A stretch of 64,000 nt of DNA, taken from assembly GCA_015058845.1 (NCBI GenBank), contig SVBO01000003.1, positions 62,001 to 126,000 on the forward strand. Direction: 5' to 3'. Under the pieces are notes generated by a model. It was not told where the DNA came from. It did no database searches and was given only the letters and a program-made list of their open reading frames with translations. Position 1 is the stretch's first letter, and each line of letters opens with the position of its first letter. This DNA is from Erysipelotrichaceae bacterium. Its GTDB lineage: Bacteria; Bacillota_I; Bacilli_A; Erysipelotrichales; Erysipelotrichaceae. A program made the position numbers and the translations under genes. Below, piece by piece: positions 1,905-59,422 of this stretch.

Positions 1905-2717
1905 ATGATCGAGAAGATATATGAAACATCTTGTGGAAATATTCATTATTGGATAGATATAGTAGATCTTGAAACAATTACGTTAGTCTTTCTTCCTGGA
2001 CTAACTGCAGATCATAGACTCTTTACGAAGCAAATAGACTACTTCCAAGGTAAATTTAACATCTTTGTATGGGATGCTCCTGCTCATGGGAGATCATGGC
2101 CTTTTGAATTTAACTTTGATCTCTTTGATAAAGCCAGGTGGTTACATGATATCCTAGAGAGTGAACAATTACGATATCCAGTGATCATAGGACAATCTAT
2201 GGGAGGATATGTTGGACAAGCATATTCACAGTTGTATCCAGATGCCTTAAAAGGATTCATTTCGATCGATTCTGCTCCCTTACAAAGAAAATATGTAACA
2301 GCAATAGAAATATACTTACTAAAGAAAATGGAGCCTGTATATTTGTATTATCCATGGAAATGGTTGTTGAAGAGTGGTACTAACGGAGTGGCTACTAGTG
2401 AATATGGAAGAAAGTTAATGTATGATATCATGATGACATATGATGGAGATAAGAAGAGGTATTCGAAGATATCTGGCCATGGTTTTAGAATGTTAGCAGA
2501 AGCTATGGAGAAAGATCTTCCTTATGAGATCAAATGTCCAGCATTATTGATCTGTGGAGAAAAGGATAGAGCAGGTTCATGCATACGATATAATAAAGCA
2601 TGGCATAAGAATACTAATATCCCATTAGAGTGGATAAAAGGAGCTGGTCACAATTCAAATACCGATAGACCAGAGATAGTGAATCAATTGATAGAAATGT
2701 TTATAAAGAAAGTATAA
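1905..2717 (+). CDS. Alpha/beta hydrolase
   Basis: This 270-residue protein has the alpha/beta-hydrolase fold. The nucleophile elbow is GQSMGGY (Ser near residue 98), the likely acid lies in CGEKDRAG and the catalytic His in GAGHNSN near the end. The early motif LPGLTADHRLF supplies the oxyanion-hole region. There is no signal peptide, so it is cytoplasmic. Likely activity is on an ester, lactone or thioester; the substrate is unknown. The ATG at 1905 follows a very good ribosome site (TAGGAGGAG). It sits 14 bases before the acetyltransferase gene and probably shares its transcript. The family is sure, the reaction is not. Confidence 0.88.
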   Translation: MIEKIYETSCGNIHYWIDIVDLETITLVFLPGLTADHRLFTKQIDYFQGKFNIFVWDAPAHGRSWPFEFNFDLFDKARWLHDILESEQLRYPVIIGQSMGGYVGQAYSQLYPDALKGFISIDSAPLQRKYVTAIEIYLLKKMEPVYLYYPWKWLLKSGTNGVATSEYGRKLMYDIMMTYDGDKKRYSKISGHGFRMLAEAMEKDLPYEIKCPALLICGEKDRAGSCIRYNKAWHKNTNIPLEWIKGAGHNSNTDRPEIVNQLIEMFIKKV

Positions 2718-2731
2718 GTAGGAGGAGTAGT

Positions 2732-3304
2732 ATGATCCGTATTGTGAATGATAAGGATGTCGAAGAACTACTAAATATATATTCATACTACGTAAAGAAT
2801 ACAGCAATATCATTTGAATATGATGTACCGTCTCAAGAAGAATTCACTAATAGAATACGTAGTATCAAAGATAAATATCCTTATTTAGTCTATGAAGAGA
2901 ATGGTAAGATAGTAGGATATGCTTATGCTACTTACTTCAAGACTAGAAGAGCGTATGATCATAGTGTAGAGGTATCTATTTATGTGGATAGAGAGTATCA
3001 TGGTAGAGGAATTGGAAGTGCTTTATATGAAGCATTAGAGAAGATCCTAGTATTACAGAATATCTTGAATATGTATGCTGTTGTAACTTATCCTGATGTA
3101 GAAGATGAGTACTTAACGATGCATAGTAGACATTTCCATGAGCACTTAGGATTTAAGGTAGTGGGAGAGTTTCATAAGTGTGGAAATAAGTTTGGTAGAT
3201 GGTATAACATGGTATATCTAGAGAAGTGTATTGGAGAACATGATGTACCTGTATTACCAGTAGTGACGTTTGAAAATATTATACATAAAGTAGATCTAAA
3301 GTAA
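2732..3304 (+). CDS. GNAT family N-acetyltransferase (phosphinothricin acetyltransferase-like)
   Basis: The 190-residue protein is a GCN5-related acetyltransferase. The acetyl-CoA pyrophosphate loop is visible as EYHGRGIGSALYEALEK near residues 90-106. The N-terminus (MIRIVNDKDVEELLNIYSYY) and the segment NTAISFEYDVPSQEEF resemble the phosphinothricin/methionine sulfoximine acetyltransferases. Such enzymes transfer acetyl from acetyl-CoA to a small amine. The C-terminus adds about 20 residues beyond the usual core. It follows the hydrolase gene with an AGGAGGAG ribosome site and ends at a bidirectional terminator. The substrate is inferred only loosely. Confidence 0.85.
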   Translation: MIRIVNDKDVEELLNIYSYYVKNTAISFEYDVPSQEEFTNRIRSIKDKYPYLVYEENGKIVGYAYATYFKTRRAYDHSVEVSIYVDREYHGRGIGSALYEALEKILVLQNILNMYAVVTYPDVEDEYLTMHSRHFHEHLGFKVVGEFHKCGNKFGRWYNMVYLEKCIGEHDVPVLPVVTFENIIHKVDLK

Positions 3305-3307
3305 AAG

Positions 3308-3334
3308 AAAGGCTGATCGATATGACCAGCCTTT
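3308..3334. terminator. Bidirectional terminator between convergent genes
   Basis: AAAGGCTG / CAGCCTTT hairpin placed between the acetyltransferase gene and the convergent lipoprotein gene; the A-rich left side gives a T-run on the minus strand. Confidence 0.7.
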
Positions 3335-3342
3335 AGTACTTA

Positions 3343-4032
3343 TTAACACTTACTGTCGCAAACTTCTCTAAATGTACGAACGAATCCATCGTGATAGATC
3401 TTCTTTAATTCAGCTCTTTGCTCTTCATTTAATCCTACATACGGATCTTCTTGAGAATCTACACTACCCTCATGGAATAAAAGGATCTCTCCCTCTTTCA
3501 CAAATACGACAGTAGGGAAATATAAACGCTTGATAGAATCATCATTTAGTCCCTCATAGACACTCGCATGCTCACCTAGAGCCTCTACTAACTCATAGTA
3601 ACCATCCTTAGCCTCTGTAGTGATCTCAACAGAACCATCTTCCTTTAACTTCTTCACATCACGATAGTCCTTCGCATTGAAGTAGTAAATAGTATCTACC
3701 ATATCCGCCTTCGCAGTCTCAGTTAAAACCTCTACCACATTACGACACCAAGGACAAGTAGGATAGCCAAAATAGATCACACCAGTACCACTCTCTAATA
3801 CTTCCATCACTTCCTCATAAGAAGCATAATACATAGGATTATCCTCACTGATCTCTACAGAAAGATACTCCTTACCACTATTCGTAAAAGAACCATTGAA
3901 CTCCTCATACTCACTCTTGAAAGTAATAGGATCCTGTGTATGATCAACCACATCTCCCCCATGATTCGTACTAGGTGTACAACCACTCAAAGCCAATAAA
4001 CCTATCAATAAAGCCAAACATAGTTTCTTCAT
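3343..4032 (-). CDS. Thioredoxin-fold lipoprotein with CPWC motif
   Basis: The 229-residue precursor starts with a lipoprotein signal peptide (MKKLCLALLIGLLALSGC), with Cys18 the likely lipidated residue. The mature part is a thioredoxin-like domain with GYPTCPWCRNVV near residue 90. CPWC is a redox-active CxxC, so an extracellular thiol-disulfide role on the membrane surface is likely. A last Cys pair (CDSKC) ends the protein and could form a second disulfide or bind metal. Similar lipoproteins in Firmicutes are annotated as bacteriocin-transport or thioredoxin-like proteins. The gene stands alone on the minus strand. Partner proteins are unknown. Confidence 0.82.
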   Translation of the reverse strand: MKKLCLALLIGLLALSGCTPSTNHGGDVVDHTQDPITFKSEYEEFNGSFTNSGKEYLSVEISEDNPMYYASYEEVMEVLESGTGVIYFGYPTCPWCRNVVEVLTETAKADMVDTIYYFNAKDYRDVKKLKEDGSVEITTEAKDGYYELVEALGEHASVYEGLNDDSIKRLYFPTVVFVKEGEILLFHEGSVDSQEDPYVGLNEEQRAELKKIYHDGFVRTFREVCDSKC

Positions 4033-4223
4033 GTGCTTTAACCTCCATATAAACTCAAATTAATTATAGGAAAAGACAATAGAAATGTCAATTCCATAGC
4101 ATAGTAGAATAATAGATGAATTTTGAAAGTGGTTTCAGAAAAATAATAACTTTTCTTCCAAAGTTTGAGTTTACATTTTTACATTTATTATGTATAATTA
4201 TTTTGGTTGAAGGAGGGGATATT

Positions 4224-4613
4224 ATGAAACAAGTTGAGAATAATGCATTTTTCTGGCAAAAACTAGACTCTCTTTACTTTTCCTCATCTATTGTGATCGA
4301 AAGACCAAAAAATTCGAAGCATCCTCGTTTCGCAGATCTAGTATATCCAGTGGATTATGGTTTCTTGAAGGATTCATTGGCAAGTGATGGTGCAAAGATC
4401 GATGTATTCGTAGGTTCGCAGAATATGAAAAGGATCAATTCTATTGTAATTACTACGGATATTTTGAAAAGAGAATGTGAAGTGAAGCTGTTGATCGGTT
4501 GTAATGAAGAAGAGGAGCATGAGATCATGCATATGTTGAATCTTTCTGAGAATCAAAAGGCTATTTTGCTTCGTAGAAGTAGTGATATAGGTAATTTTGA
4601 GGATATGGATTAG
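4224..4613 (+). CDS. Inorganic pyrophosphatase-like protein with altered active site
   Basis: I start this 129-residue protein at ATG 4224, which has a strong GAAGGAGGGG site just upstream; an in-frame extension back to 4116 has none. Residues about 20-70 resemble the family I inorganic pyrophosphatase core: IERPKNSKHPRF, then DLVYPVDYGFL, then DGAKIDVFVG. In true pyrophosphatases the last stretch reads DxDPxD with three metal-binding Asp; here the middle one is Ala. The later catalytic Asp/Lys block is also missing and the protein is short (about 175 is usual). It may act on another phosphorylated substrate or be non-catalytic. The fold assignment is fairly secure, the function open. Confidence 0.72.
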   Translation: MKQVENNAFFWQKLDSLYFSSSIVIERPKNSKHPRFADLVYPVDYGFLKDSLASDGAKIDVFVGSQNMKRINSIVITTDILKRECEVKLLIGCNEEEEHEIMHMLNLSENQKAILLRRSSDIGNFEDMD

Positions 4614-4630
4614 TGCCATATCCTTTTATT
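4601..4630 (+). terminator. Intrinsic terminator of the pyrophosphatase-like gene
   Basis: Perfect stem GGATATGG / CCATATCC followed by TTTTATTTT; the left arm includes the last codons and the stop. Confidence 0.8.
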
Positions 4631-4704
4631 TTGAACTTCCTGTTAGAATTAAGATTACATTTGTTATAAACTGTGGTATGATATACGAGTAATATTGGAG
4701 AATG

Positions 4705-5622
4705 ATGAAAATGGTCAAGAAAGTGAATAGTAAACGTGAGAAAAGACTTCGTCAGTTGATGACGTTGATTATAGCTGCTGCTGTTTCAGTATTGTTGAAT
4801 GGTTTCTTTATGGTATATTCTTATTTAAGTCATCAAGAGATCAATGAACTAGAAGCACAAGTAGTACAATTACAAGAAGAGATCACTGATCATACTACAG
4901 TAAATGATGAACTGATCATGTATATTTCAGAGTTAGAGTATAAGAGTTCGCAATTATACTGTCCTACTTTGAATCCTACCCAAGGTAAGATCGCTTATCT
5001 TACATTTGATGATGGACCTACCTCACTTACCCCTAAAGTACTAGACGTATTAAAGGAATACAATGTACATGCTACATTCTTTGTCAATGGGGTCAAGGTA
5101 AAGGGCAATGCAGAGATCTTGAAGCGTATGATCGAGGAAGGACATACTATCGGAAATCATACGACTACGCATAAGTATGAAACATTGTATAGTTCTTTAG
5201 ATAACTTAAAAAGTGAGATCTTAGATACGAATTATCGTGTGTATGAAGCCACTGGATATACAGTAAAAGCCTTCCGTTTCCCAGGAGGATCTTCTAATAC
5301 ACAATTCATGACATATTCTCCAGATACACCATTAAATAGCTGGTTATCCATGATCCATGAATTAGGTATGGAATACTATGACTGGAATGTATCTAGTCTA
5401 GATGCTTCTGGTACCTATAAGAGTGCTGATCAGATCTATGAGGCTGTGATCAATGGAACTAAGAATAAGACACAGATCACTGTTTTGATGCATGATGTTC
5501 CTAATAATCAAACTACATTAGAGGCATTACCAAGGATCATTGAAACACTATTAGAACAAGGCTATTCTATTGAAGCATTGACTCCTAATAGTAAAGCAAT
5601 ACAACACAAAACTGTTTCATAA
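4705..5622 (+). CDS. Membrane-anchored polysaccharide deacetylase (NodB domain)
   Basis: The protein of about 305 residues has a short basic N-terminus, one membrane helix (about residues 15-40), a short coiled-coil-like segment (NELEAQVVQLQEEIT), then a NodB deacetylase domain. The catalytic motifs are clear: TFDDGP (base and metal Asp), HTIGNHTTTH (metal His pair), FRFPGG and the late LMHDV. Such enzymes remove acetyl groups from N-acetylglucosamine or N-acetylmuramic acid in peptidoglycan or another surface glycan, outside the membrane. Start choice is uncertain: ATGs lie at 4702, 4705 and 4711 behind GGAG at 4697-4700, and 4702 is too close to it. It is followed 10 bases later by a small lipoprotein gene. 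Confidence 0.88.
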   Translation: MKMVKKVNSKREKRLRQLMTLIIAAAVSVLLNGFFMVYSYLSHQEINELEAQVVQLQEEITDHTTVNDELIMYISELEYKSSQLYCPTLNPTQGKIAYLTFDDGPTSLTPKVLDVLKEYNVHATFFVNGVKVKGNAEILKRMIEEGHTIGNHTTTHKYETLYSSLDNLKSEILDTNYRVYEATGYTVKAFRFPGGSSNTQFMTYSPDTPLNSWLSMIHELGMEYYDWNVSSLDASGTYKSADQIYEAVINGTKNKTQITVLMHDVPNNQTTLEALPRIIETLLEQGYSIEALTPNSKAIQHKTVS

Positions 5623-5632
5623 GGAGATATAT

Positions 5633-6097
5633 ATGAGAGTATTTAAAAAGGTATTATTAGTCTTATGCATATGTATGTTAGCTGCTTGTGGTAAAGAAGA
5701 ACAGAAAGACATTCAACTAACAGATGCAATGAGCTATATTGAGAACAATTACATCGATACATTCACTACAGAAGTAAATGATTCAGATTTCTATACGATG
5801 TTTGAATTAGATCCAAGTCAGATCAAGCAACAAGTATACTATCAAGCATTCTTAGATGTGAAATGTGATGAGATCGCATTGATCCAAGTAAGTGATGAAG
5901 ATCTTGTAGAACAAGTGAAGACAGTACTACAAACACGTTTAGAAGCTATTACGAATGAGTTTGATGGATATATCGAAGCACAAAAGAATATCGCATCACA
6001 AGGTATCATCTTCTCTCGTGGTACTTATGTATTCATGATCGTGCATGAGGATGCTGTAGCCATTCAAGATTATCTGATCCATGAATTAGAGAATTAA
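5633..6097 (+). CDS. Small lipoprotein, possibly DUF4358
   Basis: The 154-residue protein has a clear lipoprotein signal (MRVFKKVLLVLCICMLAACG, lipobox LAAC). The mature part looks like the DUF4358 family in length and in the pattern of an early DAMSYIENNYIDTF segment and a later AIQDYLIHEL. No function is established. It follows the deacetylase with an AAGGAGA ribosome site and is probably co-transcribed, which suggests a cell-envelope role. The family call is from memory of the pattern and is moderate. Confidence 0.72.
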   Translation: MRVFKKVLLVLCICMLAACGKEEQKDIQLTDAMSYIENNYIDTFTTEVNDSDFYTMFELDPSQIKQQVYYQAFLDVKCDEIALIQVSDEDLVEQVKTVLQTRLEAITNEFDGYIEAQKNIASQGIIFSRGTYVFMIVHEDAVAIQDYLIHELEN

Positions 6098-6131
6098 GAA
6101 ATAATTCAGATATTATTCATAATTATTCAAA

Positions 6132-44813: not shown

Positions 44814-44838
44814 GAGGAAGTGTATGCTTCCTCTTTTC
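44814..44838 (+). terminator. Terminator of the TrpXYZ-like operon
   Basis: GAGGAAG / CTTCCTC with a six-base loop and TTTTC. Confidence 0.82.
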
Positions 44839-44909
44839 TGATTTCAGATAGAAATACGGGTATAGATATGGTAGAATTTAGATGTATATTACAAATAAGG
44901 AGGATAGAT

Positions 44910-47900
44910 ATGAATAATAAGAATCTGAAATTATGGGGAGCATTAGTTCTATTCTCACTTATTGGGCAAGTCGCATGGACAGTAGAGAATATGTACTTAA
45001 ATGTATTTATCTATAAGATCTTCCATGCTACGGCTTCAGATATCTCATTCATGGTAGCAGCTAGTGCTATTACAGCAGCTCTAACCACTATTCTAATAGG
45101 TGCATTATCAGACAAAGTAGGGAAAAGAAAGGTATTCATCTGTGGGGGATATATTCTATGGGGAATATCGATCTTAGCCTTCTCCTTCATAAGACTAGAG
45201 TACTTAGAACCCCTAGTAGGTAGCACTATCACAGCTGCTACACTAGGTGTTCAACTAGTCATAGCAGTAGATTGCCTAATGACATTCCTAGGTTCTTCTG
45301 CCAATGATGCAGCATTCAATGCATGGTTAACAGAGAGTGGAGATGAGTCTAATAGAGGTAAATTAGAAGGTGTCAATGCTATGATGCCTGTGCTATCTAT
45401 CTTAGTGGTATTTGGTGGCTTCATGTCCTTTAACTTAGATCTAATGGAATCATGGATCACGATCTTCCTGATCATTGGTATTACTGTAATGAGTATAGGG
45501 GTACTCGGAATATTCCTGATCGAAGATCATGTGGAAACAAACACAGAGATCAGTTATTGGCATAATGTATGTTACAGTTTCACAAAGGAAGCTATTACAC
45601 AGAATCCATTGTTATACCTAGTGATCGCTGCCTTTGCAGTATTCGGTATAGCGATCCAAGTCTATATGCCATATCTAATACTATATTATGAGCAAACATT
45701 ACAAATGACGAATTACACATTGATCTTAGCACCAGCTATCATCATTGCCTCTATCGCAACAGTAGGCTATGGGAAACTATATGACATGCTTGGATTTCAA
45801 ACATCGATCAAACCCTCATTACTAATGCTTATAGTAGGGTGTAGTATCTTATATCTATGTACTTCTATAGTATGGGTATTCATTGGATCATTATTGATGA
45901 TGTGTGGATATCTATGTAGTATGGCGGTATTTGGGGCTATGATGAGATCTCACATTCCTGTAGAGAAGAGTGGCCAATTCCAAGGAGTACGTATTATTGG
46001 GCAAGTATTGATCCCTGGAGTAGTAGGCCCATGGATCGGTTCCTTTGTACTTCGTAATGCGGAAGTGATCGTGAATAATGATGGTACAACGTCATTCTTA
46101 CCTAGTAGTGATCTATTCTTAGTCACTGTGATCATTACAGTAATCGTATTACTATGTACAAAGTATATCGAAGAGTATATTCGTAATGCGAATTATACAC
46201 TGACTAGTATGGGGCAAGAGGAGATCCAGGATAATGATATCTTATGGAATGAGTATCCTAGACCTCAACTAAAACGTAACAATTGGAAGAATCTGAATGG
46301 CATCTGGGATCTAAATGGTACCAAGATCAGAGTCCCTTTCCCACCACAATCTGCGTTATCTTTATATCAACATAAAGTGAAAGATACCCTTACATATACC
46401 CATCATTTCGATCTTTCTAAACAATTAGACCAAGAAAGAATCCTTCTCCATTTCGGAGCAGTGGATCAGATCGCGGAAGTATATGTGAATGATGCACTAG
46501 TGGGTAAACATGAGGGGGGGTATCTACCATTTACCCTAGATATCACAGAGTGTGTGAAGTATGATCATAAGAATACATTGGTCGTGAAAGCTATTGATAC
46601 ATTATCCACAGATTATCCATATGGTAAACAAACGAAAGCACGTGGTGGTATGTGGTATACACCAGTCAGTGGGATCTGGAAGAGTGTATGGCTAGAACAA
46701 GTACCTACTACTTATATTCGTAATATCAAGATCACACCAGATCTACAAGGGATCCAGTTAGAGGTCGATATAGAAGGAAACTATACAGAACTAAAAGCTT
46801 CTATTACTTTGCCAGATGGTTCTATATACACACAATCGATCCAGAAGAGAGATTATATCTTATTAGAAGGATTATGGATCAATGAGGAAAGCTATGTTCC
46901 AAGACTTTGGACACTACAAGATCCATATCTATATACTATGAAGATCGTATGTGACAATGATGAGATCGAAACATACTTTGGACTTCGTACAGTAGAGATC
47001 AAGGAATATAAAGGAAAGCAAAGAGTGTGTCTGAATGGAGAACCAATATTCCTACATGGTATTCTAGATCAAGGATATTACTGTGATGGTATCTTCTTAC
47101 CAAGTGAAGAGAAAGAGTTTGAAAGAGATATCTTACGTATGAAGGAACTAGGCTTGAACTTATTACGGAAACATATCAAGATCGAACCAGAGTGTTTCTA
47201 TTATTACTGTGATCTACATGGTATGTTAGTCATGCAAGATCATGTGAATAGTGGGAAGTATAACTTCTTAAGAGATACAGCTCTACCAACTATAGGGATC
47301 AAGAACCTACCAGAAGGGAAGAAGAAGGATTGTAAGCAACAAAGATTCTTTACCCAACATATGTTAGATACCCAAGCCCACTTATATAATCATCCATGTA
47401 TCATATCATATACAGTCTTCAATGAAGCATGGGGACAATTTGATTCTAATGCCATGTATAGACTTGCGAAAGAAAATGATCCAACACGTATCTATGATGC
47501 TACCTCTGGATGGTTTGCTAAGGGAGAAAATGATTTTGATAGTGAACATATTTACTTCAAGAGTATTCCATTATCTCCTAAAGAAAGACCATTATTATTA
47601 TCAGAGTTTGGTGGATATACTTATTTAGCTGAGGGACATGTCTTTGCGAAGTATTCGCATTATGGATATGGAGTATCAGAAACTAAGGAAGAATTACAAG
47701 GAAAGATCAGTGATACGTATAGAACTATGGTAATTCCATTTATTAAAGAGGGATTATGTGGTAGTATATATACACAGTTAAGTGATGTGGAAGATGAGAT
47801 CAATGGTCTATATACCTATGATCGAAAGGTATGTAAGGTAGATCAAGAAGAGATGTGTAAGTTACGTCATGAAATGGATATCATCGTTGAAGAGATCAAA

Positions 47901-47927
47901 GGAGAAGAGCATGAAAGAGAGAATTAA
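44910..47927 (+). CDS. Fused MFS-type transporter and GH2 glycoside hydrolase
   Basis: ATG 44910 follows AAGGAGG and gives 1,005 residues in one uninterrupted frame. Residues about 1-430 are a transporter with some twelve helices (LWGALVLFSLIGQVAW; the MFS loop IGALSDKVGKRKVF). From about residue 448 a glycoside hydrolase family 2 protein begins: sugar-binding jelly roll (HFGAVDQIAEVYVNDALVGK), Ig-like sandwich, and TIM barrel. The acid/base is likely the Glu in VFNEAWGQ (near 838) and the nucleophile the Glu in LLSEFGGY (near 898), as in beta-glucuronidases and beta-galactosidases. The hydrolase has no signal, so it would face the cytoplasm and act on the imported sugar. The M20 gene follows with overlap. 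Confidence 0.9.
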   Translation: MNNKNLKLWGALVLFSLIGQVAWTVENMYLNVFIYKIFHATASDISFMVAASAITAALTTILIGALSDKVGKRKVFICGGYILWGISILAFSFIRLEYLEPLVGSTITAATLGVQLVIAVDCLMTFLGSSANDAAFNAWLTESGDESNRGKLEGVNAMMPVLSILVVFGGFMSFNLDLMESWITIFLIIGITVMSIGVLGIFLIEDHVETNTEISYWHNVCYSFTKEAITQNPLLYLVIAAFAVFGIAIQVYMPYLILYYEQTLQMTNYTLILAPAIIIASIATVGYGKLYDMLGFQTSIKPSLLMLIVGCSILYLCTSIVWVFIGSLLMMCGYLCSMAVFGAMMRSHIPVEKSGQFQGVRIIGQVLIPGVVGPWIGSFVLRNAEVIVNNDGTTSFLPSSDLFLVTVIITVIVLLCTKYIEEYIRNANYTLTSMGQEEIQDNDILWNEYPRPQLKRNNWKNLNGIWDLNGTKIRVPFPPQSALSLYQHKVKDTLTYTHHFDLSKQLDQERILLHFGAVDQIAEVYVNDALVGKHEGGYLPFTLDITECVKYDHKNTLVVKAIDTLSTDYPYGKQTKARGGMWYTPVSGIWKSVWLEQVPTTYIRNIKITPDLQGIQLEVDIEGNYTELKASITLPDGSIYTQSIQKRDYILLEGLWINEESYVPRLWTLQDPYLYTMKIVCDNDEIETYFGLRTVEIKEYKGKQRVCLNGEPIFLHGILDQGYYCDGIFLPSEEKEFERDILRMKELGLNLLRKHIKIEPECFYYYCDLHGMLVMQDHVNSGKYNFLRDTALPTIGIKNLPEGKKKDCKQQRFFTQHMLDTQAHLYNHPCIISYTVFNEAWGQFDSNAMYRLAKENDPTRIYDATSGWFAKGENDFDSEHIYFKSIPLSPKERPLLLSEFGGYTYLAEGHVFAKYSHYGYGVSETKEELQGKISDTYRTMVIPFIKEGLCGSIYTQLSDVEDEINGLYTYDRKVCKVDQEEMCKLRHEMDIIVEEIKGEEHEREN

Positions 47928-50898: not shown

Positions 50899-51279
50899 AT
50901 GCAAGCGAAATTTTATCGTTGTAATCATTGTGGAAATATTATTGAAATGGTGCATGCTAGTGGTGTACCTGTGATTTGTTGTGGTGAGCCTATGAAGGAA
51001 TTAGTTGCGAATACTGTAGATGCTGCTGTTGAGAAACATGTTCCATATGTGGTAGTAGAGGGGAATATGGTGAAGGTACAAGTGGGTGAGGTCGAACATC
51101 CTATGATTCCTGAGCATTATATTCAATGGATCTACTTACATACAAATAAGGGTATTCAAAGAAAAGAGTTAACATCTGCAGAGAAACCTTATGCTGAGTT
51201 CTGTTTAGCACAGGGTGAAGAAGTGATCGCTGTTTACGAGTATTGTAATTTACATGGTTTATGGAAGAAGGAGCTATAG
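50899..51279 (+). CDS. dfx: Desulfoferrodoxin (superoxide reductase)
   Basis: The 126-residue protein is a two-iron superoxide reductase. Centre I uses CNHCG near residues 8-11 and the adjacent Cys pair in PVICCGEPM. Centre II uses the His residues of EKHVPY, EHPMIPEHY and YCNLHG, with the Cys of EYCN. It reduces superoxide to hydrogen peroxide in the cytoplasm of anaerobes without releasing oxygen. AAGGAGGAA precedes the ATG. The gene is alone. Confidence 0.95.
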   Translation: MQAKFYRCNHCGNIIEMVHASGVPVICCGEPMKELVANTVDAAVEKHVPYVVVEGNMVKVQVGEVEHPMIPEHYIQWIYLHTNKGIQRKELTSAEKPYAEFCLAQGEEVIAVYEYCNLHGLWKKEL

Positions 51280-51292
51280 TTCCTTCTTTTTC
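51265..51292 (+). terminator. Terminator of the superoxide reductase gene
   Basis: AGAAGGA / TCCTTCT overlapping the stop codon, followed by TTTTTCTTTTT. Confidence 0.82.
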
Positions 51293-51513: not shown

Positions 51514-51635
51514 TTTTTTTTTTTTTTTCAGTTTTATTTTTATTTTTGAAATTTTTTTTTTAAATTTTTTATCATTTTTTTTTTTTTTTCAGTGATATAC
51601 TTATTTTTGAAAGAGTTTATGTAAATTTTTGATCA
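51514..51635 (+). repeat. Two tandem copies of a 61-bp T-tract repeat
   Basis: Copy 1 spans 51514-51574 and copy 2 spans 51575-51635. Each has fifteen T, then CAG, ten variable bases, ATTTTTGAAA, ten variable bases, then AAATTTTT and, after one base, ATCA. The corresponding elements are all exactly 61 bases apart. Copy 2 ends inside the likely -35 of the surface locus (TTGATC at 51629-51634; TTAATA at 51652-51657, 17-base spacer). Confidence 0.75.
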
Positions 51636-51657
51636 ATGTTTCATTTGCAAATTAATA
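51629..51657 (+). promoter_or_regulatory. Tentative promoter of the surface locus
   Basis: TTGATC and TTAATA with a 17-base spacer, directly after the T-tract repeat, which could act as an UP-like element. Confidence 0.45.
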
Positions 51658-51716
51658 CTGCTAATAGCAATGATCTATGTGTATATTGATTTTATTTGAA
51701 GGGGGAAATGGGGTTT

Positions 51717-54700
51717 ATGAGAAGATTATTATCTTTATTATTTGCTATTTGTATCATGGCCACTAGTATTGTGTTTTTCCCAACTGTTGTTTTAGCTGAT
51801 ACGCTAGAATTAGAAGATCATACAAATATGTATGGTGTACATATACATAATAATTCAAAAATTACTAGAAATGTGGGAGCTGATTCCTCTATTTCTTATA
51901 CCCTTGAGATTGAACTATCTTCAGACTATGCTTTGCAAAGAGGTAATGATAATGTAACAAGTACTGAAGATGATTACTATGTAGTTGATAAGAATGGTAG
52001 ATATCTTATTGAACTATGGGGTGGTGCTGGTGCTAGTACTGGTACAGAAGAAGATATGACTAGCGGTGGTGCTAGTGGATATGTATATGGTATCGTTACC
52101 TTAAAAGAAGGGGATATCCTTCTTTATACTCTTGGTGGTAAAGGTACTCAAACAAATACAGTAGGTCAAGGTGGCGGTGCTAATGGTGGTGGTGGCTACG
52201 GTGACCGTGGTAGTACTACTGTAGGTGGTGGCGGTGGTTACTCTGCTGTATTTATGTATGATGATCAAACCGAGATAGATAAGTTCTATGAGAATTATAT
52301 CGATAATGATGGTCATCTAGTCAGAAATGTAACTGAGGTAGACCGTCTATCAAAATATATCATGATCGCTGGTGGTGGCGGTGGTGCTGGTTCTTATGGA
52401 ACAGATACTCGTGGTACTGCATATGGTGGTCATGGTGGGAATATGAGTTCTACTTCGGTACATCTAGATACTTCATCTGGATATGCTGTTTCTGGTACTG
52501 TGTATGCTGGACAAGGTGGTGGGTCTACAGATGGTACTGGTGAATATGCTGGTAATGGTGGAAGTTATATTCCAGGTGATCCAGTAAAAACAGCTTGGGG
52601 TCTTGGTAAAGGTGTTCAACCAAATGACTGGGCTGGAAGTTATAATGATAATCTTGTTGGTGGAGCTGGTGGAGCTGGTAACTATCGTGGCGGAGGCGGT
52701 GGAGCTGGTTACGCTGGTGGTTCTGGTGGTCTGATGTCTAATATCGTACTTGCACAAGGTATAGGTGGCGGTGGTGGTGGATCATCATTTGTTGCAGATA
52801 TTTTTAACGGTAGTTTTGAAAAGCAAAATCCAAATGATTATCTAATTGGTTCTAAGAATACAGATAATGGTGGAAAGTTCCATATTGTATATCTAGATGA
52901 GTCAGATGATACTTATCTAGAACAAGTGGATATTGAATTTGCTCGTACACCCTATTTCAATATTACTGAGTTTGAAGCAATCAATACAATTACTAATGAA
53001 AATGGAAGTGTTAGAGAATCGAAGATATATGATTTTATTAATAATACAACAGATGATAGAAGATCGCTGATCAATATCGACTATACTGGATATAAGATGG
53101 AAGGTAATGTTCATGTTGATTTCATAAAAGATCAAAATGGAAATGTATCAAATACAAATGATTTTAATACAACTACTCTTAAGTTCTTGATCCCAAATGT
53201 TAATCTTAAACCTGAGGCACCAGATGGATCAGATCAATCCAAGGGTGTATTAACACTAAAATTAACATTTACTCCTAAAGAAGAGTTCGCTGGTGGTAAT
53301 AATGTTCCGCTATTTGCTGATGATCTAATTGAAGTTATTCCAACTGATACGAATTATACTAAAGGCGATGTTACATTTAAAAATCAAAATGGATATGTCA
53401 ACGTTCCTATGCATATCGATCCATCTCCTGTAAATCACACTCCACAAGGTCTAGATCCAGAACTTGTTGTTCATAAGGTGTCTAGTTTATATATTGATAA
53501 ATATGCAGATGTTCGAAATGATCTTTCTTCTGATTGGCGTTATTTCTTTATGGAGAGCATTAGTGATCATTCTGTTCGAGATGAATGGAATAATTCTATT
53601 CTTGTTATGATCGATGGGGTTGAGAATACGATTTCTCCGGATGAAACGACTAGATATTATATTGATATTACTGCTACTGCAAAACAGCCTACAGGTAAGA
53701 AGTATGCCGTATTAGGTGACGAGTTAACTACGCAGACATTTACAGGTATTTCTGTTATTACCATTGCTGGTACAGGTATTGGTACATTGAATGATAATGT
53801 AATCGTCTATAAGAAAGGTCTATCTTATACGGATGGCAAATATACATTAAGTCTTGATGTTTCTTCAGATGCTAGTGGATCTGTTATTGATGCCTCTGGA
53901 AGACTTCCTAAATTTACTGGTATTGAGTATGGATCAGAAGAATTAGGACGTGAATCGACTATTATTATTCCAGTAGATGGTATTTATACTATCACTCTTA
54001 AGGGAGGCGATGGTGGTACTGGCGGACATGCAAGTTTGTTCGGGAATCAAGGTGGTGCAGGTGGTAAAGGAGGATATATCCAAGCTTCTTTCGCATTCAA
54101 ACAAGGTACTATTCTTAAAGGATATGCAGGAGCTAATGCAAATGCCTCTAGTACGGCTGGTGAAGGTGCTGATGGTGGTGAATACTCTTATATTGCTGTT
54201 TTGAAAGATCTAGCTTCTGGTGAGATAGATTATTATCTAATGATCGCTGGCGGTGGAGGTGGTGGTGGAGGATCGAGTATTCTTGTTAAAGGTAGTAATG
54301 GTCATTCAGCTAATGATCAAAACTTCTATACTCCTACTACACCGTTAACCGATGCTTCTTCTTACATGGGCGGTAAAGGTAGTGCAGAAGATAACTGGCT
54401 TTGGGGTTCGGGAAATTCTGGAAGTGCTTATGGTAACTATGTATATCGTGGAATGATTAATGGTACAGAAGGAAGTGGATTAATAGAAGGTGAAGATGCT
54501 GCTAAAGAACTAAGCACATCTTCTACAAATGCTGGTGGCAGTGCTTCAATGAAATGTGAGAATCTTGGCTTTGGTTCTGGTATTGGTAATGAGGCAGCTG
54601 TTGGAAAATATACAATAGAGACTGCCATCTCTAAGTATTTCACAGTACATACTGTAGAGGATATTCCTCAAGTAACTGTTGTAAGAAAGGATGATGGAAC

Positions 54701-57383
54701 TACACCTGCATCAGTTAATGTTTCACTACAACGTATTAAAGAAGATGGTACAACAGTATTACCAGAGGATATTGCTGAGGATTATCTTTTTACTAGAGTT
54801 ATTGTTGATATAGATCTTGTTCCTACTACAAAGTCGTATACTACTGATAGTGTTACAAAGGATATAGCTTTTGTTGATTATACATTGAATATAGTGCTTG
54901 TTCCAAGAGAAGGATTCCTTGGTGGTAATGACGTTGAATTGATCGCTGCAAAGAAAGATGTATCTGGTTTATTAACTGGTATGAAACTTTCTCAAAGTAC
55001 ATATTCAGGTAATGATGAAATAACTACAGAAGAACAATTTATTAATATCGATGAGGATAGAACATTGGACTATGCTAATGTAACTATTCCGGGAAGTCTA
55101 ATAGATAGTATTACTCTTGAAACTCAGAATAAAACATATATTTATGGTGGTACTCCAGTTATTAAGAAAGATCTTGTAAAGAGTGTAAAACTACTAGATC
55201 TTGAAAAAGAATATACTTGGGAAGATGATTATATCAAGTTGATTGATCCACGCAATGATACAGAAGAGCTTAGACCTGAGAAAACTACTGTATATCAAAT
55301 TGAGGCAGGATATGGTCCTCTTTACGATGAACCTTATGCGACTGTTCATACTGCTGCTGTTAATATAGTCAAAACTGAACAAGCAACAGTATATACAAAT
55401 GCTAAAGTTACTTATGCAGTTACTGGTGTAACTCCAGATAACATTGAAAAAGATTCAGAAGGTAATTATACACAATTGATCACTTTTGGAGAAGGTGGTC
55501 ATGCGAATAGTGATTATTCAACATCTTTTACACTCATTGCGATGGGAAATGATGTTCATTACCACATGCCTAATGAGATTACAGTAGAAGTTGCTGGAGA
55601 AAAGCTTGTAGCAGGTACAGATTATGTATACACGAGAAAAGGTGATACAAACGCTGATCTTCTGATCTATAAAGGAAAAATTAATGGTGATGTCTTGATT
55701 ACTGTTGAAGCATGTCATGAATCGTATATGGTATCATACTTGTATCAAAAAGAACCTGAAAGTTCTGAGTATGAAGTAGTTGAGATTAAAGATAGACACT
55801 ATGGTGAACCAATTGAAATGGAAACAGATTTTGAAAGTGTTGGTAAAGATCTTCCAGCAAAATATGATCATTACGATCTTAAATGGACTTGGGATGGTGG
55901 CAATTCGGATCCTGTAACTGTAATGCCTAAGAGAAATGTTGTAGCAGTTGGTAGATATGTACCAAAGGAATATGATATTACTATTACTTATCAGTATGCA
56001 GATGGTACATTGATACGTACCGATACCCATAGTATTGCTCATAATACTGAGTTTACTATTAAGAGTGATGAGATCGCTGGCTATATAGCTGATAAACTTG
56101 TAATAAGTGATATAGTGGATGGTTCGAAAGAGCAAAAATATGTTGTTACGTATTCTTCGGCAGAAGGTAAATTAACTATTAACTATGTATATGAAGATGG
56201 TAAGGAAGCTGCTGAACCATATAGTCAACAATTAGAATATGGAGCTTCTTATGAAGTGATTTCTCCACCTATTAATGGATATACACCAGATCTTTCTATT
56301 GTTTCTGGTACGATGGACGATGATGGAGAAGTTCATACTGTTACATATAGTCCAAATACATATACAGTAACATTTGATCCTAATGGAGGAAGTATTTCTA
56401 ACATTGAAAGTACTAAATCTGTAGAATATGATTCTATATATGGACAATTACCAACACCTGTCAAACTAGGATATACGTTTGAGGGTTGGAAATTAAATGA
56501 TCAACTGATTGATTCTAATACAGTTGTTAAGATTACTGAAGATACTACTTTAACAGCTAGTTGGAAAGGATTATCATTCACTGTTGCTATCAAGTATGTT
56601 TCTGAAGAAGGTGAAGAGTTACGACCTAGTACTATTAATAGTCATGAGATAGGAACTGACTATTCATATACTTCACCACAAATTGAAGGATATAATTGCG
56701 AAACACCAATCGTATCTGGTAAGATGCCAGCGCAAAATGTAGTGGTTATAGTCTTATATACTAAAGTTAAATATACAGTTACTATCTATTTCACATGTTT
56801 AGATTCTAATGTTGAATTACCTGAGACGATAATTGAAGAGTATAAACATGGTGAATCATATAGTATTACTGTACCAACGATTTCTGGATATACATCTACA
56901 TTGAATGTCGTCAGTGGTGTGATCAATGCAGATAATGTTGAGGTAACAGTGTACTATTATGAATCTGTTGATGATATTACTATTACATGGGGAACTATGA
57001 ACTTCGAATATAACAAAGGAATATGGGATCCACAAACTCATACGTACTCTAATGGTAGTTTCTCTCCTATAGGGACAACTAATTATGTTACTTTTACAAA
57101 TAGTTCAAGTTCAACTGATTTTGAAGTTGATTTGCTTTATTATGCTTCTAGTCAATATCCGACTATAAGAGGAATATATTCTAATACTGAAGGTACAACA
57201 ATCACTTCTGTAACTCTTCCAAAAGCTAATGGAGATCCAGTGAGTGTTACGGTCTTCTTCAATATTAGAGAAGAGATTGAAGGGGATTCAACTAATGTAC
57301 CTCTTGGATCACAAGTACTTCCAGATAACTTTATCTCGGGTAATTGTACAGTTAGCATTAAAGAGAAAGGAGCTGGGGCATGA
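51717..57383 (+). CDS. Giant secreted glycine-rich, MucBP-like surface protein
   Basis: From ATG 51717 (AAGGGGG upstream; ATG 51708 is also in frame) the protein has about 1,888 residues. A signal peptide (RRLLSLLFAICIMATSIVFF region) ends near residue 28. A glycine-rich module spans about 95-365 (LIELWGGAGAS; IMIAGGGGGAG) and is followed by a domain with FAGGNNVPLF. The pair repeats at about 755-970 (ITLKGGDGG; MIAGGGGGGGGSS) with FLGGNDVELI near 1065. Residues about 1418-1750 hold MucBP-like repeats (ITYQYADGTLI; INYVYEDGKEA) and one Listeria-Bacteroides repeat (VTFDPNGGSI, then GYTFEGWKL). A final domain from about 1751 (ITWGTMNFEYN, WDPQTHTYSNG) resembles the small protein at 58288. No LPxTG or membrane anchor. 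Probable adhesin or fibre component. Confidence 0.85.
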   Translation: MRRLLSLLFAICIMATSIVFFPTVVLADTLELEDHTNMYGVHIHNNSKITRNVGADSSISYTLEIELSSDYALQRGNDNVTSTEDDYYVVDKNGRYLIELWGGAGASTGTEEDMTSGGASGYVYGIVTLKEGDILLYTLGGKGTQTNTVGQGGGANGGGGYGDRGSTTVGGGGGYSAVFMYDDQTEIDKFYENYIDNDGHLVRNVTEVDRLSKYIMIAGGGGGAGSYGTDTRGTAYGGHGGNMSSTSVHLDTSSGYAVSGTVYAGQGGGSTDGTGEYAGNGGSYIPGDPVKTAWGLGKGVQPNDWAGSYNDNLVGGAGGAGNYRGGGGGAGYAGGSGGLMSNIVLAQGIGGGGGGSSFVADIFNGSFEKQNPNDYLIGSKNTDNGGKFHIVYLDESDDTYLEQVDIEFARTPYFNITEFEAINTITNENGSVRESKIYDFINNTTDDRRSLINIDYTGYKMEGNVHVDFIKDQNGNVSNTNDFNTTTLKFLIPNVNLKPEAPDGSDQSKGVLTLKLTFTPKEEFAGGNNVPLFADDLIEVIPTDTNYTKGDVTFKNQNGYVNVPMHIDPSPVNHTPQGLDPELVVHKVSSLYIDKYADVRNDLSSDWRYFFMESISDHSVRDEWNNSILVMIDGVENTISPDETTRYYIDITATAKQPTGKKYAVLGDELTTQTFTGISVITIAGTGIGTLNDNVIVYKKGLSYTDGKYTLSLDVSSDASGSVIDASGRLPKFTGIEYGSEELGRESTIIIPVDGIYTITLKGGDGGTGGHASLFGNQGGAGGKGGYIQASFAFKQGTILKGYAGANANASSTAGEGADGGEYSYIAVLKDLASGEIDYYLMIAGGGGGGGGSSILVKGSNGHSANDQNFYTPTTPLTDASSYMGGKGSAEDNWLWGSGNSGSAYGNYVYRGMINGTEGSGLIEGEDAAKELSTSSTNAGGSASMKCENLGFGSGIGNEAAVGKYTIETAISKYFTVHTVEDIPQVTVVRKDDGTTPASVNVSLQRIKEDGTTVLPEDIAEDYLFTRVIVDIDLVPTTKSYTTDSVTKDIAFVDYTLNIVLVPREGFLGGNDVELIAAKKDVSGLLTGMKLSQSTYSGNDEITTEEQFINIDEDRTLDYANVTIPGSLIDSITLETQNKTYIYGGTPVIKKDLVKSVKLLDLEKEYTWEDDYIKLIDPRNDTEELRPEKTTVYQIEAGYGPLYDEPYATVHTAAVNIVKTEQATVYTNAKVTYAVTGVTPDNIEKDSEGNYTQLITFGEGGHANSDYSTSFTLIAMGNDVHYHMPNEITVEVAGEKLVAGTDYVYTRKGDTNADLLIYKGKINGDVLITVEACHESYMVSYLYQKEPESSEYEVVEIKDRHYGEPIEMETDFESVGKDLPAKYDHYDLKWTWDGGNSDPVTVMPKRNVVAVGRYVPKEYDITITYQYADGTLIRTDTHSIAHNTEFTIKSDEIAGYIADKLVISDIVDGSKEQKYVVTYSSAEGKLTINYVYEDGKEAAEPYSQQLEYGASYEVISPPINGYTPDLSIVSGTMDDDGEVHTVTYSPNTYTVTFDPNGGSISNIESTKSVEYDSIYGQLPTPVKLGYTFEGWKLNDQLIDSNTVVKITEDTTLTASWKGLSFTVAIKYVSEEGEELRPSTINSHEIGTDYSYTSPQIEGYNCETPIVSGKMPAQNVVVIVLYTKVKYTVTIYFTCLDSNVELPETIIEEYKHGESYSITVPTISGYTSTLNVVSGVINADNVEVTVYYYESVDDITITWGTMNFEYNKGIWDPQTHTYSNGSFSPIGTTNYVTFTNSSSSTDFEVDLLYYASSQYPTIRGIYSNTEGTTITSVTLPKANGDPVSVTVFFNIREEIEGDSTNVPLGSQVLPDNFISGNCTVSIKEKGAGA

Positions 57384-58213
57384 TACAATTAAACTATGTT
57401 TTAAAGAATGACTACGACAAGGTTATTAAACTAGGAAATGAAAGTGTATTTTGTTATTCTGATAAGAAGATAAAAGAATTATATCCTAGTGGTGGTTATG
57501 AACTTGTCGCAGAAACCAATGGAAAGTTAGGTTCTGCTGAAAAGGTAGGGATCCTTACTGTTAGTACTATGAACATTTCGATCTATAGTCAAGGTACTTA
57601 CAAAGGACTAAACAAAGTGATCGGGTATGTTGCAGTAGGTGAAGATCAGTATGTTGCTTTCTATAAGAGTAATGCTGCATTCATTGCAATAGTACTAGGA
57701 TTACTTACTTTGATCCTAGGAGCAGCGATTCTTATCGGATGGTTATTCGCTAATCCTAAGCCTCCTGTTGTAATAGAACCAGATAATCCACAACCTAGTG
57801 TAGATCCAGGAATCGTAGAGATCGATCCGATCTCTCCACTTCCAGATAAACCAGAGGTAACACCATCTAGTTCTGGAGGAGGATCAGTATCTATGGTATT
57901 TACAAAGGGAGTAACTGTTTCATTATCTAGCGATACATCTGAGATCTATTATCAGAATCCCGATACATCAGATCATAACGCTGTTCTAGAGCTATATATT
58001 GTATCGGATGGTGTAGAATACTTCATTGGTAAAACAGGTGTTATTCCGCCTGGAAACGCCTTATACGAGATGTCTATTGCTGAAAGAGATGCTAAGATCT
58101 CTACAGGAGTATACATGGGATTATTTAGAGTATCTTTCTATAATCCTGTTACAGGTGAGAGAGCTCCTCTACAATCAGATATCACAGAGGTAACGGTAAC
58201 TGTTACCGAATAA
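57380..58213 (+). CDS. Membrane-anchored partner of the surface protein
   Basis: The 277-residue protein starts within the ATGA overlap with the giant gene, implying coupling. Residues 1-90 are soluble (cytoplasmic side, YDKVIKLGNESVFCYSDKK), followed by one membrane helix near 96-121 (FIAIVLGLLTLILGAAILIGWLF). A Pro-rich wall-spanning linker (VVIEPDNPQPSVDPG) comes next. The extracellular C-terminal domain from about 175 contains EIYYQNPDTSDHNAVLELYI and KTGVIPPGNALY, closely like the domain in the protein at 58894. I infer that it holds a secreted partner at the membrane surface. No known family was recognised. Confidence 0.8.
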   Translation: MIQLNYVLKNDYDKVIKLGNESVFCYSDKKIKELYPSGGYELVAETNGKLGSAEKVGILTVSTMNISIYSQGTYKGLNKVIGYVAVGEDQYVAFYKSNAAFIAIVLGLLTLILGAAILIGWLFANPKPPVVIEPDNPQPSVDPGIVEIDPISPLPDKPEVTPSSSGGGSVSMVFTKGVTVSLSSDTSEIYYQNPDTSDHNAVLELYIVSDGVEYFIGKTGVIPPGNALYEMSIAERDAKISTGVYMGLFRVSFYNPVTGERAPLQSDITEVTVTVTE

Positions 58214-58287
58214 AAAGGATGCTATATATTTATATATATTGCATAAGTAATTAAGAATTCATATTATTTAGAAAGAAGGGTAGATTT

Positions 58288-58830
58288 ATGAAAAAACTTA
58301 TTACGCTTGCTATTAGTGCTTTGATGGTATTATCTCTTGGGACAACAGTGTTTGCTACAAGTACAAGTATAACAGATAGTGCAAATTTTAATAGCATAGA
58401 TCCTATTGATGTGTTGGTTAATGTAAATGTTGATGTTACAGAAACTAAATATAAAATTGATGTTGTTTGGTCAAATTTAGTATTCACTTATACATTTGAT
58501 GATTATGTTTGGAATCCTGGTAACCACACATATTCTACTGATGAAACAGGCAGATGGAGTCATAATGAAGGTACAGTAACTGTTACCAACCACTCTAATA
58601 AAACTGTTACTGTTGATGCTTCATGTCCTGATAATATTGCAGATGGTGTGGATGTAACTTTTAATATGACTAATGGTGATGAAGAATTAGAAACTGCTGA
58701 TGCAAATGAACGTTTAGGGGATGAAGAGAAAGCTGACAAAGTAGTTTATACAGTTTCTGTTAATGGGCAACCTAATTCTCGTACACAGCAAACATTAACT
58801 GTTGCTGAAGTAACATTATCTATCCAATAA
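58288..58830 (+). CDS. Small secreted protein with W/HTYS domain
   Basis: The 180-residue precursor has a signal peptide cut after VFA (MKKLITLAISALMVLSLGTT region). The mature chain has VVWSNLVFTYTFDD, VWNPGNHTYSTDE and WSHNEGTVTVTNHSNKTVTV. These align with the end of the giant protein (ITWGTMNFEYN, IWDPQTHTYSNG, YVTFTNSSSSTDF). It ends in a beta-strand (VAEVTLSIQ), without anchor or Cys. It has a strong ribosome site (GAAGGG) and lies 74 bases after the anchor gene, so it may be made in excess, as a subunit or wall-bound protein would be. Confidence 0.82.
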   Translation: MKKLITLAISALMVLSLGTTVFATSTSITDSANFNSIDPIDVLVNVNVDVTETKYKIDVVWSNLVFTYTFDDYVWNPGNHTYSTDETGRWSHNEGTVTVTNHSNKTVTVDASCPDNIADGVDVTFNMTNGDEELETADANERLGDEEKADKVVYTVSVNGQPNSRTQQTLTVAEVTLSIQ

Positions 58831-58845
58831 CCCACTACAACCATA

Positions 58846-58875
58846 AAACACACGGCATCCCCGTGTGTTTCTTTA
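58846..58875 (+). terminator. Terminator inside the surface locus
   Basis: AAACACACGG / CCGTGTGTTT with a five-base loop, followed by CTTT; probably partial, giving lower expression of the last gene. Confidence 0.78.
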
Positions 58876-58893
58876 AAGTATTAGGAGAATACA

Positions 58894-59391
58894 ATGGATA
58901 AAGTACAAAAAAGCATCATAGGAATACTAACTATGATCTTACTAGCATTGCTAGTGTATCTAACTACTATGATCACTAACAGACAATCAGATATTATTGT
59001 AGGGAACTTCCAAGCACCGCCATTCGAAGTACATGCTGAAATAGGTGTTCCCAATGAGGTAGATCCCTTACTTAATTACAGTGATATTATGATAGAAGGA
59101 AACTATGGTTTCTCTATCGCAGGTACACCATTACTAGAAAAGAATGAATTAAGTGTATACTTCACAAATCCTAAAGAGAATACAGTATGGTTACTATTAC
59201 GCGTTTATAATGCTCTAGGAGAAGAGATAGGTACTACTGGTATAGTTAGACCTGGTGAGTATGTTAAGACTGTTAGGTTAGATCCTAACGTGGATGATGA
59301 GTCTATTCGAGTAAAAGTATTGTCATATGAACCGGATACATATTATAGTTTAGGTACAGCGAGCGCTACATTACCAGTTATTACTAAGTAA
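58894..59391 (+). CDS. Second membrane-anchored partner protein
   Basis: The 165-residue protein has an N-terminal anchor (residues about 8-28, IIGILTMILLALLVYLTTMI) and an extracellular domain. That domain contains LSVYFTNPKENTVWLLLRVY and IGTTGIVRPGEYVKTVRL, matching the pattern of the protein at 57380 (YxxNP, later IGxTGxxxPG). It lacks the long linker and the cytoplasmic part. Probably the partner of the small secreted protein, by gene order. No known family. Confidence 0.8.
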   Translation: MDKVQKSIIGILTMILLALLVYLTTMITNRQSDIIVGNFQAPPFEVHAEIGVPNEVDPLLNYSDIMIEGNYGFSIAGTPLLEKNELSVYFTNPKENTVWLLLRVYNALGEEIGTTGIVRPGEYVKTVRLDPNVDDESIRVKVLSYEPDTYYSLGTASATLPVITK

Positions 59392-59394
59392 ACA

Positions 59395-59422
59395 ATGGTC
59401 AGTATAGAGATATACTGACCAT
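59395..59422. terminator. Terminator at the end of the surface locus
   Basis: Long perfect stem ATGGTCAGTATA / TATACTGACCAT with loop GAGA; the T-run is short. Confidence 0.75.

Follow-up and report, generated by a model that had tools for sequence, protein, structure and literature searches.

The stretch of Erysipelotrichaceae DNA analysed here (the window, 64,000 nucleotides of a 1.75 Mb genome) carries four ORFs on the + strand that encode, in order, a giant secreted protein, a membrane protein (anchor1), a small secreted protein and a second membrane protein (anchor2). The giant protein ends in a domain (W) homologous to the small protein, the two anchors have an extracellular domain in common, and the gene order recurs in other genomes; the names W domain, anchor1 and anchor2 were coined in the present analysis. 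We consider it rather probable that the four genes form an adhesin-display module assembled through contacts between W domains and anchors, the W proteins themselves bearing no sortase signal.

Organisation of the locus

The initial annotation had described a four-gene cell-surface locus, and our reading of the ORFs agrees, all four genes being present, in order and on the same strand. Its proposed start at 51514 does not hold, as it falls in an upstream T-rich spacer; the giant gene begins with ATG at 51717, with TTG at 51696 as an alternative start. The features are the following.

51263..51290, +, terminator-like hairpin at the end of the upstream desulfoferrodoxin gene, bounding the operon upstream
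51717..57383, +, giant secreted protein, 1888 aa (ORF, signal peptide, Pfam domains; relatives in L007, L008, L010, L012 and L063)
56973..57371, +, W domain at the giant C-terminus, homologous to the small protein (giant W profile match 1760-1892)
57380..58213, +, anchor1, 277 aa (ORF, family alignment, model of the L007 orthologue): cytoplasmic N-terminal domain ~57380-57670, TM helix ~57680-57750, Pro-rich linker, extracellular Ig-like domain 57875-58210
58288..58830, +, small secreted W protein, 180 aa (ORF, profile comparison, model): signal peptide 58288-58356, beta-prone N-terminal extension 58357-58440, W domain 58444-58827
58846..58870, +, predicted RNA hairpin between the small and anchor2 genes, 10 bp stem, z -3.9
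58894..59391, +, anchor2, 165 aa (ORF, profile comparison, model): N-terminal TM helix ~58912-58980, extracellular Ig-like domain 59005-59388
59395..59422, strand not assigned, perfect 12-bp hairpin just 3' of the anchor2 gene, z -6.0, likely the 3' end of the operon

The giant stop and the anchor1 start overlap by exactly four bases (ATGA, 57380-57383), as noted previously, and this ATGA coupling in the window compares with spacings of -31 to 97 bases between the two ORFs in other clusters. Elsewhere in the window, a 1035-aa ORF at 44820-47927 (+) combines MFS transporter (PF07690) and glycoside hydrolase family 2 domains according to Pfam, and is either a transporter-hydrolase fusion or the product of a sequencing error merging two genes.

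Read from the ATG at 51717, the giant protein begins with a signal peptide, and Pfam recognises in it a Gly-rich ALK_LTK_GRD domain (~51990-52856), four MucBP stretches, Muc_B2 and Flg_new, the MucBP/Flg_new/Muc_B2 repeats extending to ~56760 and beyond. No LPxTG occurs anywhere in the protein, whose C-terminal residues are CTVSIKEKGAGA, and it does not end in the LPxTG-type motif, hydrophobic stretch and basic C-terminal tail of the sortase-anchored class. Its earlier description as a Gly-rich, MucBP-like secreted protein devoid of LPxTG was thus accurate. The further claim that the system is independent of sortase stands for the four proteins of the locus; it does not extend to two related clusters that adjoin a gene for a protein with a sortase-type C-terminus (L066, 7162-8058; L102, 5148-6128), and the host genome itself has one sortase. 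Another cluster encodes a secreted protein of 4460 aa with a C-terminal W domain (L047, G460:C85, 5230-18612), and upstream of it lies a second giant gene whose W domain is nearly identical.

Two pairs of related proteins

The small protein and the C-terminal ~135 residues of the giant have in common the motif W..(L/M).F.Y....W.P..H.Y......(V/I)TvtN.S...v.v, followed by a final strand. Their resemblance, suspected from the letters alone, is borne out by pairwise BLAST (E 3e-4) and by a comparison of family profiles, one made from seven giant sequences and the other from ten small ones (hhalign 98.9%, E 1.6e-17); the profile E-values given here and below refer to single comparisons. The W-domain matches in the window genome number exactly two, both at the present locus. 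A match in L002 was discarded as chance, in a dUTPase-like frame. Ahead of the W domain, the aligned small proteins retain a beta-prone segment with the pattern x-V-x-hydrophobic-x-hydrophobic, which is unpaired or disordered in the monomer model (pLDDT <50, residues 1-25).

The extracellular domain common to both anchors, likewise anticipated by the initial annotation, is supported by pairwise (E 1e-3) and profile (95.8%, E 7e-9) comparison, is kept elsewhere, and has the core 'F.NP..........(I/L)...G....(I/V)..(S/T)G.i.pG'. Profiles of W and of the anchors have no detectable relation to each other (0.2%). Because both pair similarities are kept in other genomes, where the gene order recurs as well, they reflect more than chance.

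The anchors of the window have an N-terminal TM helix, and those of L046 and L047 a lipobox (LTGC/LSSC). Either device places the Ig-like domain outside the cell, and the lipobox forms indicate that the anchors are exported and held in the membrane. The cytoplasmic domain of anchor1, of about 100 residues, is conserved, and it is folded and beta-rich in the model of the L007 orthologue. Distant versions in L013, L014, L069 and L070 carry a GLUG-like repeat domain in its place, predicted to be cytoplasmic in L069 (8699-10213) and L070 (10722-12317), and the lipoprotein anchor1 of L046 and L047 has no cytoplasmic part at all. GLUG-like repeats are usually extracellular.

Neither the small protein nor either anchor matches a Pfam or NCBIfam model above its cutoff, and a search of PDB sequences with the anchor and W profiles gave nothing credible; its matches to SAKe were set aside as a short motif repeated within a designed protein. 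On sequence grounds, the W domain, the anchor Ig domain and the anchor1 cytoplasmic domain are thus three conserved predicted domains with no family model above cutoff.

Of the nine clusters, eight have a predicted hairpin between the small and anchor2 genes (z -3.9, -8.0, -3.2, -4.2, -5.5, -6.9, -5.9 and -6.3). Outside the window, seven of the eight clusters have an equivalent (z -3.2 to -8.0), the exception being L048 (z -1.8). The gap between the anchor1 and small genes gives z values of -0.5 to -4.8, weaker on average.

Distribution among genomes

Using local profile models, we found the order giant-anchor1-small-anchor2 in nine clusters (the window, L007, L008, L010, L012, L046, L047, L048 and L063), the anchor search profile including some of the loci that it later matches. 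These clusters are mostly from animal-gut Clostridia and so reach beyond the class of the window. These nine have one to four small genes each, with four in tandem in L008 and two in L063, and one genome (G460) holds three clusters; looser forms (L067-L070) have extra small genes or a displaced anchor1. The genomes are mostly MAGs, and several clusters are cut by contig ends. The possibility, raised at the outset, that the genes would fail to co-occur in related genomes did not materialise.

Among 146 genomes of one family, anchor2 occurs in 10, W in nine and both in eight (Fisher p 9.5e-11), leaving two with anchor2 and no W and a single one with W and no anchor2, in which anchor1 and a giant lie where a contig stops. 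An anchor2 scan of 84,980 species genomes returned six loci, all from Clostridia or Oscillospiraceae MAGs and most with record titles naming sheep, rabbit, deer or buffalo. The system is rare: in the class of the window, four of 395 genomes were positive, two of them with distant anchor relatives only, as were three of 391 genomes from the G460 class, and it is absent from the one congener of the window organism that was examined.

Some loci depart from the four-gene set. L009 has both anchors and no adjoining W gene. The anchor fold is kept in L017 (1429-1950), L018 (1288-1755) and L050 (7801-8364), where these distant relatives adjoin unrelated small secreted proteins, a ubiquitin-like one in L018 and one with 'VSYTVTIP' in L050; these loci may point to a larger superfamily in which Ig proteins anchored by their N-terminus are paired with secreted proteins. 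In G024, a genome from the family of the window, L013 and L014 are two copies whose genes for W proteins and for anchors of both types are scattered among O-antigen-ligase-like, glycosyltransferase, sugar-phosphate transferase and DivIVA-like genes, and this neighbourhood points to a possible connection with protein glycosylation or surface polysaccharide.

A mobile-element origin was considered and rejected, W and anchor2 having no plasmid match and no viral-contig match. The record MT837052.1 (L102), deposited as an unverified 'Bacteriophage sp.' from human faeces, contains at 2518-6128 the order anchor1-W-W-anchor2 and a protein with an NPSTGD sortase-type tail, next to genes resembling those for a two-component system and an AbiEii-like toxin; it is probably bacterial DNA and a human-gut form of the system.

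Comparison with known surface systems

WxL clusters of Lactobacillales and Bacillales, which combine small WxL, large WxL and WxLIP (DUF916-DUF3324) proteins, have the same layout and provide a working precedent (PMC10599100, PMC9772566). A further hallmark of WxL clusters is peptidoglycan binding by the shared domain. In both systems the last domain of a large adhesin is that of a stand-alone small secreted protein, with W replacing WxL here, a membrane-held Ig-like partner is encoded, a sortase-anchored protein often lies alongside, and the hosts are gut bacteria. However, the proteins themselves differ. The same family includes a further genome, G098, with a genuine WxL cluster (L099), and two other genomes of the class have WxL/DUF916 genes; against profiles built from these genes W scored 0.06-0.2% with WxL domains and the anchors 0.1-0.2% with DUF916 (hhalign); the faint match of anchor1 to DUF3324 reached 6% probability at best (E 0.006). 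The window genome has no Pfam WxL or DUF916 (PF06030) match. Small and large proteins of WxL clusters carry a WxL domain (PF13731) bearing two WxL motifs; here there is a single conserved W-x-x-hydrophobic motif, and W has no detectable relation to WxL. WxLIP is one two-domain protein (DUF916 and DUF3324) with a C-terminal TM, whereas here two anchors of a single Ig domain, lacking any Pfam match, are held by an N-terminal TM or lipid, anchor1 adds a cytoplasmic domain, and the clusters are mostly in Clostridia. The lack of family matches and the negative profile comparisons argue that the locus, WxL-like in layout yet without two defining features, is not a WxL cluster. The original proposal of a layout analogous to WxL built from different domains, which a match to WxL or DUF916 would have overturned, survives.

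The TasA/TapA and CalY/CapP filaments of Bacillus are similar in that secreted beta-sandwich proteins and a helper reach a Gram-positive surface independently of sortase. In contrast to them, no Pfam or NCBIfam match to TasA/camelysin above cutoff was found here, the giant adhesin bears the same domain as the small protein, and the operon has no signal-peptidase gene. Chaperone-usher pili likewise have a subunit domain common to tip adhesin and small pilin, Ig-like chaperones and weak fold matches to our models, but the present system has a monoderm layout, no usher, membrane-anchored Ig proteins and no sequence relation to them.

Structure models and proposed assembly

AlphaFold models were made as readthrough fusions, of the window small protein with anchor2 and of the L007 giant C-terminus with anchor1, from alignments of 22 and 26 rows restricted to correctly aligning subsets, as MAFFT spread small proteins over both domains. 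The suggestion of the initial annotation that complexes be predicted was thus carried out in part: the single domains are mostly confident (pLDDT ~80-97 where folded), and neither fusion has a confident interface (pTM 0.44 and 0.41). Distance-matrix correlation, which was unstable, did not single out the giant-anchor1 and small-anchor2 pairs. The top PDB fold match of both models (Foldseek) was the WxLIP chain 9i1y_B, over two Ig domains; at TM-scores of 0.15-0.27 we take this as an Ig-like fold only and reject it as homology. Other weak fold matches were the donor-strand pilins and chaperones CfaB, SafD/A, AggA, Caf1M and YadV.

In the assembly that we favour, the giant Gly-rich/MucBP protein would face outwards as an adhesin, its domains suggesting mucin or carbohydrate as ligand, while its C-terminal W domain and the free small W protein would be common assembly parts. 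Anchor1 and anchor2, held in the membrane by a TM helix (by lipid in some relatives), would act as Ig-like receptors or chaperones that capture W domains emerging from the Sec channel, so that both adhesin and W platform would stay on the cell surface with neither bearing a sortase signal. The contacts would most likely be made by beta-strand addition, comparable to that of WxL with WxLIP, for which it is an AlphaFold prediction (PMC10599100), and each anchor may have one secreted partner of its own. Stem-loops are known in general to alter dosage within operons (PMC5927463), and the mRNA hairpin 3' of the small gene would raise the abundance of the small protein above that of anchor2. In favour of this display module are the recurring gene order, the co-occurrence of W and anchor2, the homology within each pair, the lipobox forms of the anchors, the ATGA coupling, the giant's lack of a sortase signal, WxLIP as top fold match, the hairpin 3' of the small gene and the precedent of WxL clusters. 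Counting against it are the fusion models without interface, the weakness of the WxLIP fold matches, the L009 anchors without W and the different secreted partners in L017, L018 and L050.

A tentative and distinctly less probable explanation is a filament, in which small W proteins join into a polymer by donor-strand exchange, each using its N-terminal strand, the two membrane Ig-like proteins start and hold the fibre as chaperone and base, and the giant caps it as a mucin-binding tip adhesin; such a filament would have evolved independently of WxL, sortase pili and TasA, and we regard that too as doubtful. The conserved beta-prone segment, disordered in the monomer, fits this idea, as do small-gene counts of one to five in the clusters, a hairpin suited to excess production, the donor-strand proteins among the fold matches and the Gram-positive precedent of TasA/TapA (PMC10151520). 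Yet those matches are weak and of a kind that Ig folds give in general, a comparable N-terminal extension occurs on some giants (L046) as well, and no usher-like gene is present. A divergent WxL cluster, with W as a WxL domain and the anchors as WxLIP proteins, both changed past recognition, is improbable: the shared layout (PMC9772566, PMC10599100), WxLIP as top fold match for both models and the faint DUF3324 similarity would agree, but the near-zero profile scores, the missing second WxL motif, the TM at the opposite end and the lack of any genome Pfam WxL match do not, and the true WxL cluster in the same family makes the two systems look separate. That anchor1 serves mainly in signalling, relaying W-domain binding outside to its cytoplasmic domain, seems very improbable; the conserved folded domain and its replacement by GLUG-like repeats would suit such a role, but the lipoprotein anchor1 of L046/L047 lacks any cytoplasmic part and a known signalling motif was not found.

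Significance

The locus represents a recurrent, unnamed surface module that would, as the display module we favour, add to the few known means by which large Gram-positive adhesins are displayed without a sortase signal. Should the filament explanation be true, it would offer a further route to surface fibres or adhesin platforms in Gram-positive gut bacteria. Since it is found in animal-gut Clostridia and on a human faecal contig, the system may bear on mucus colonisation.
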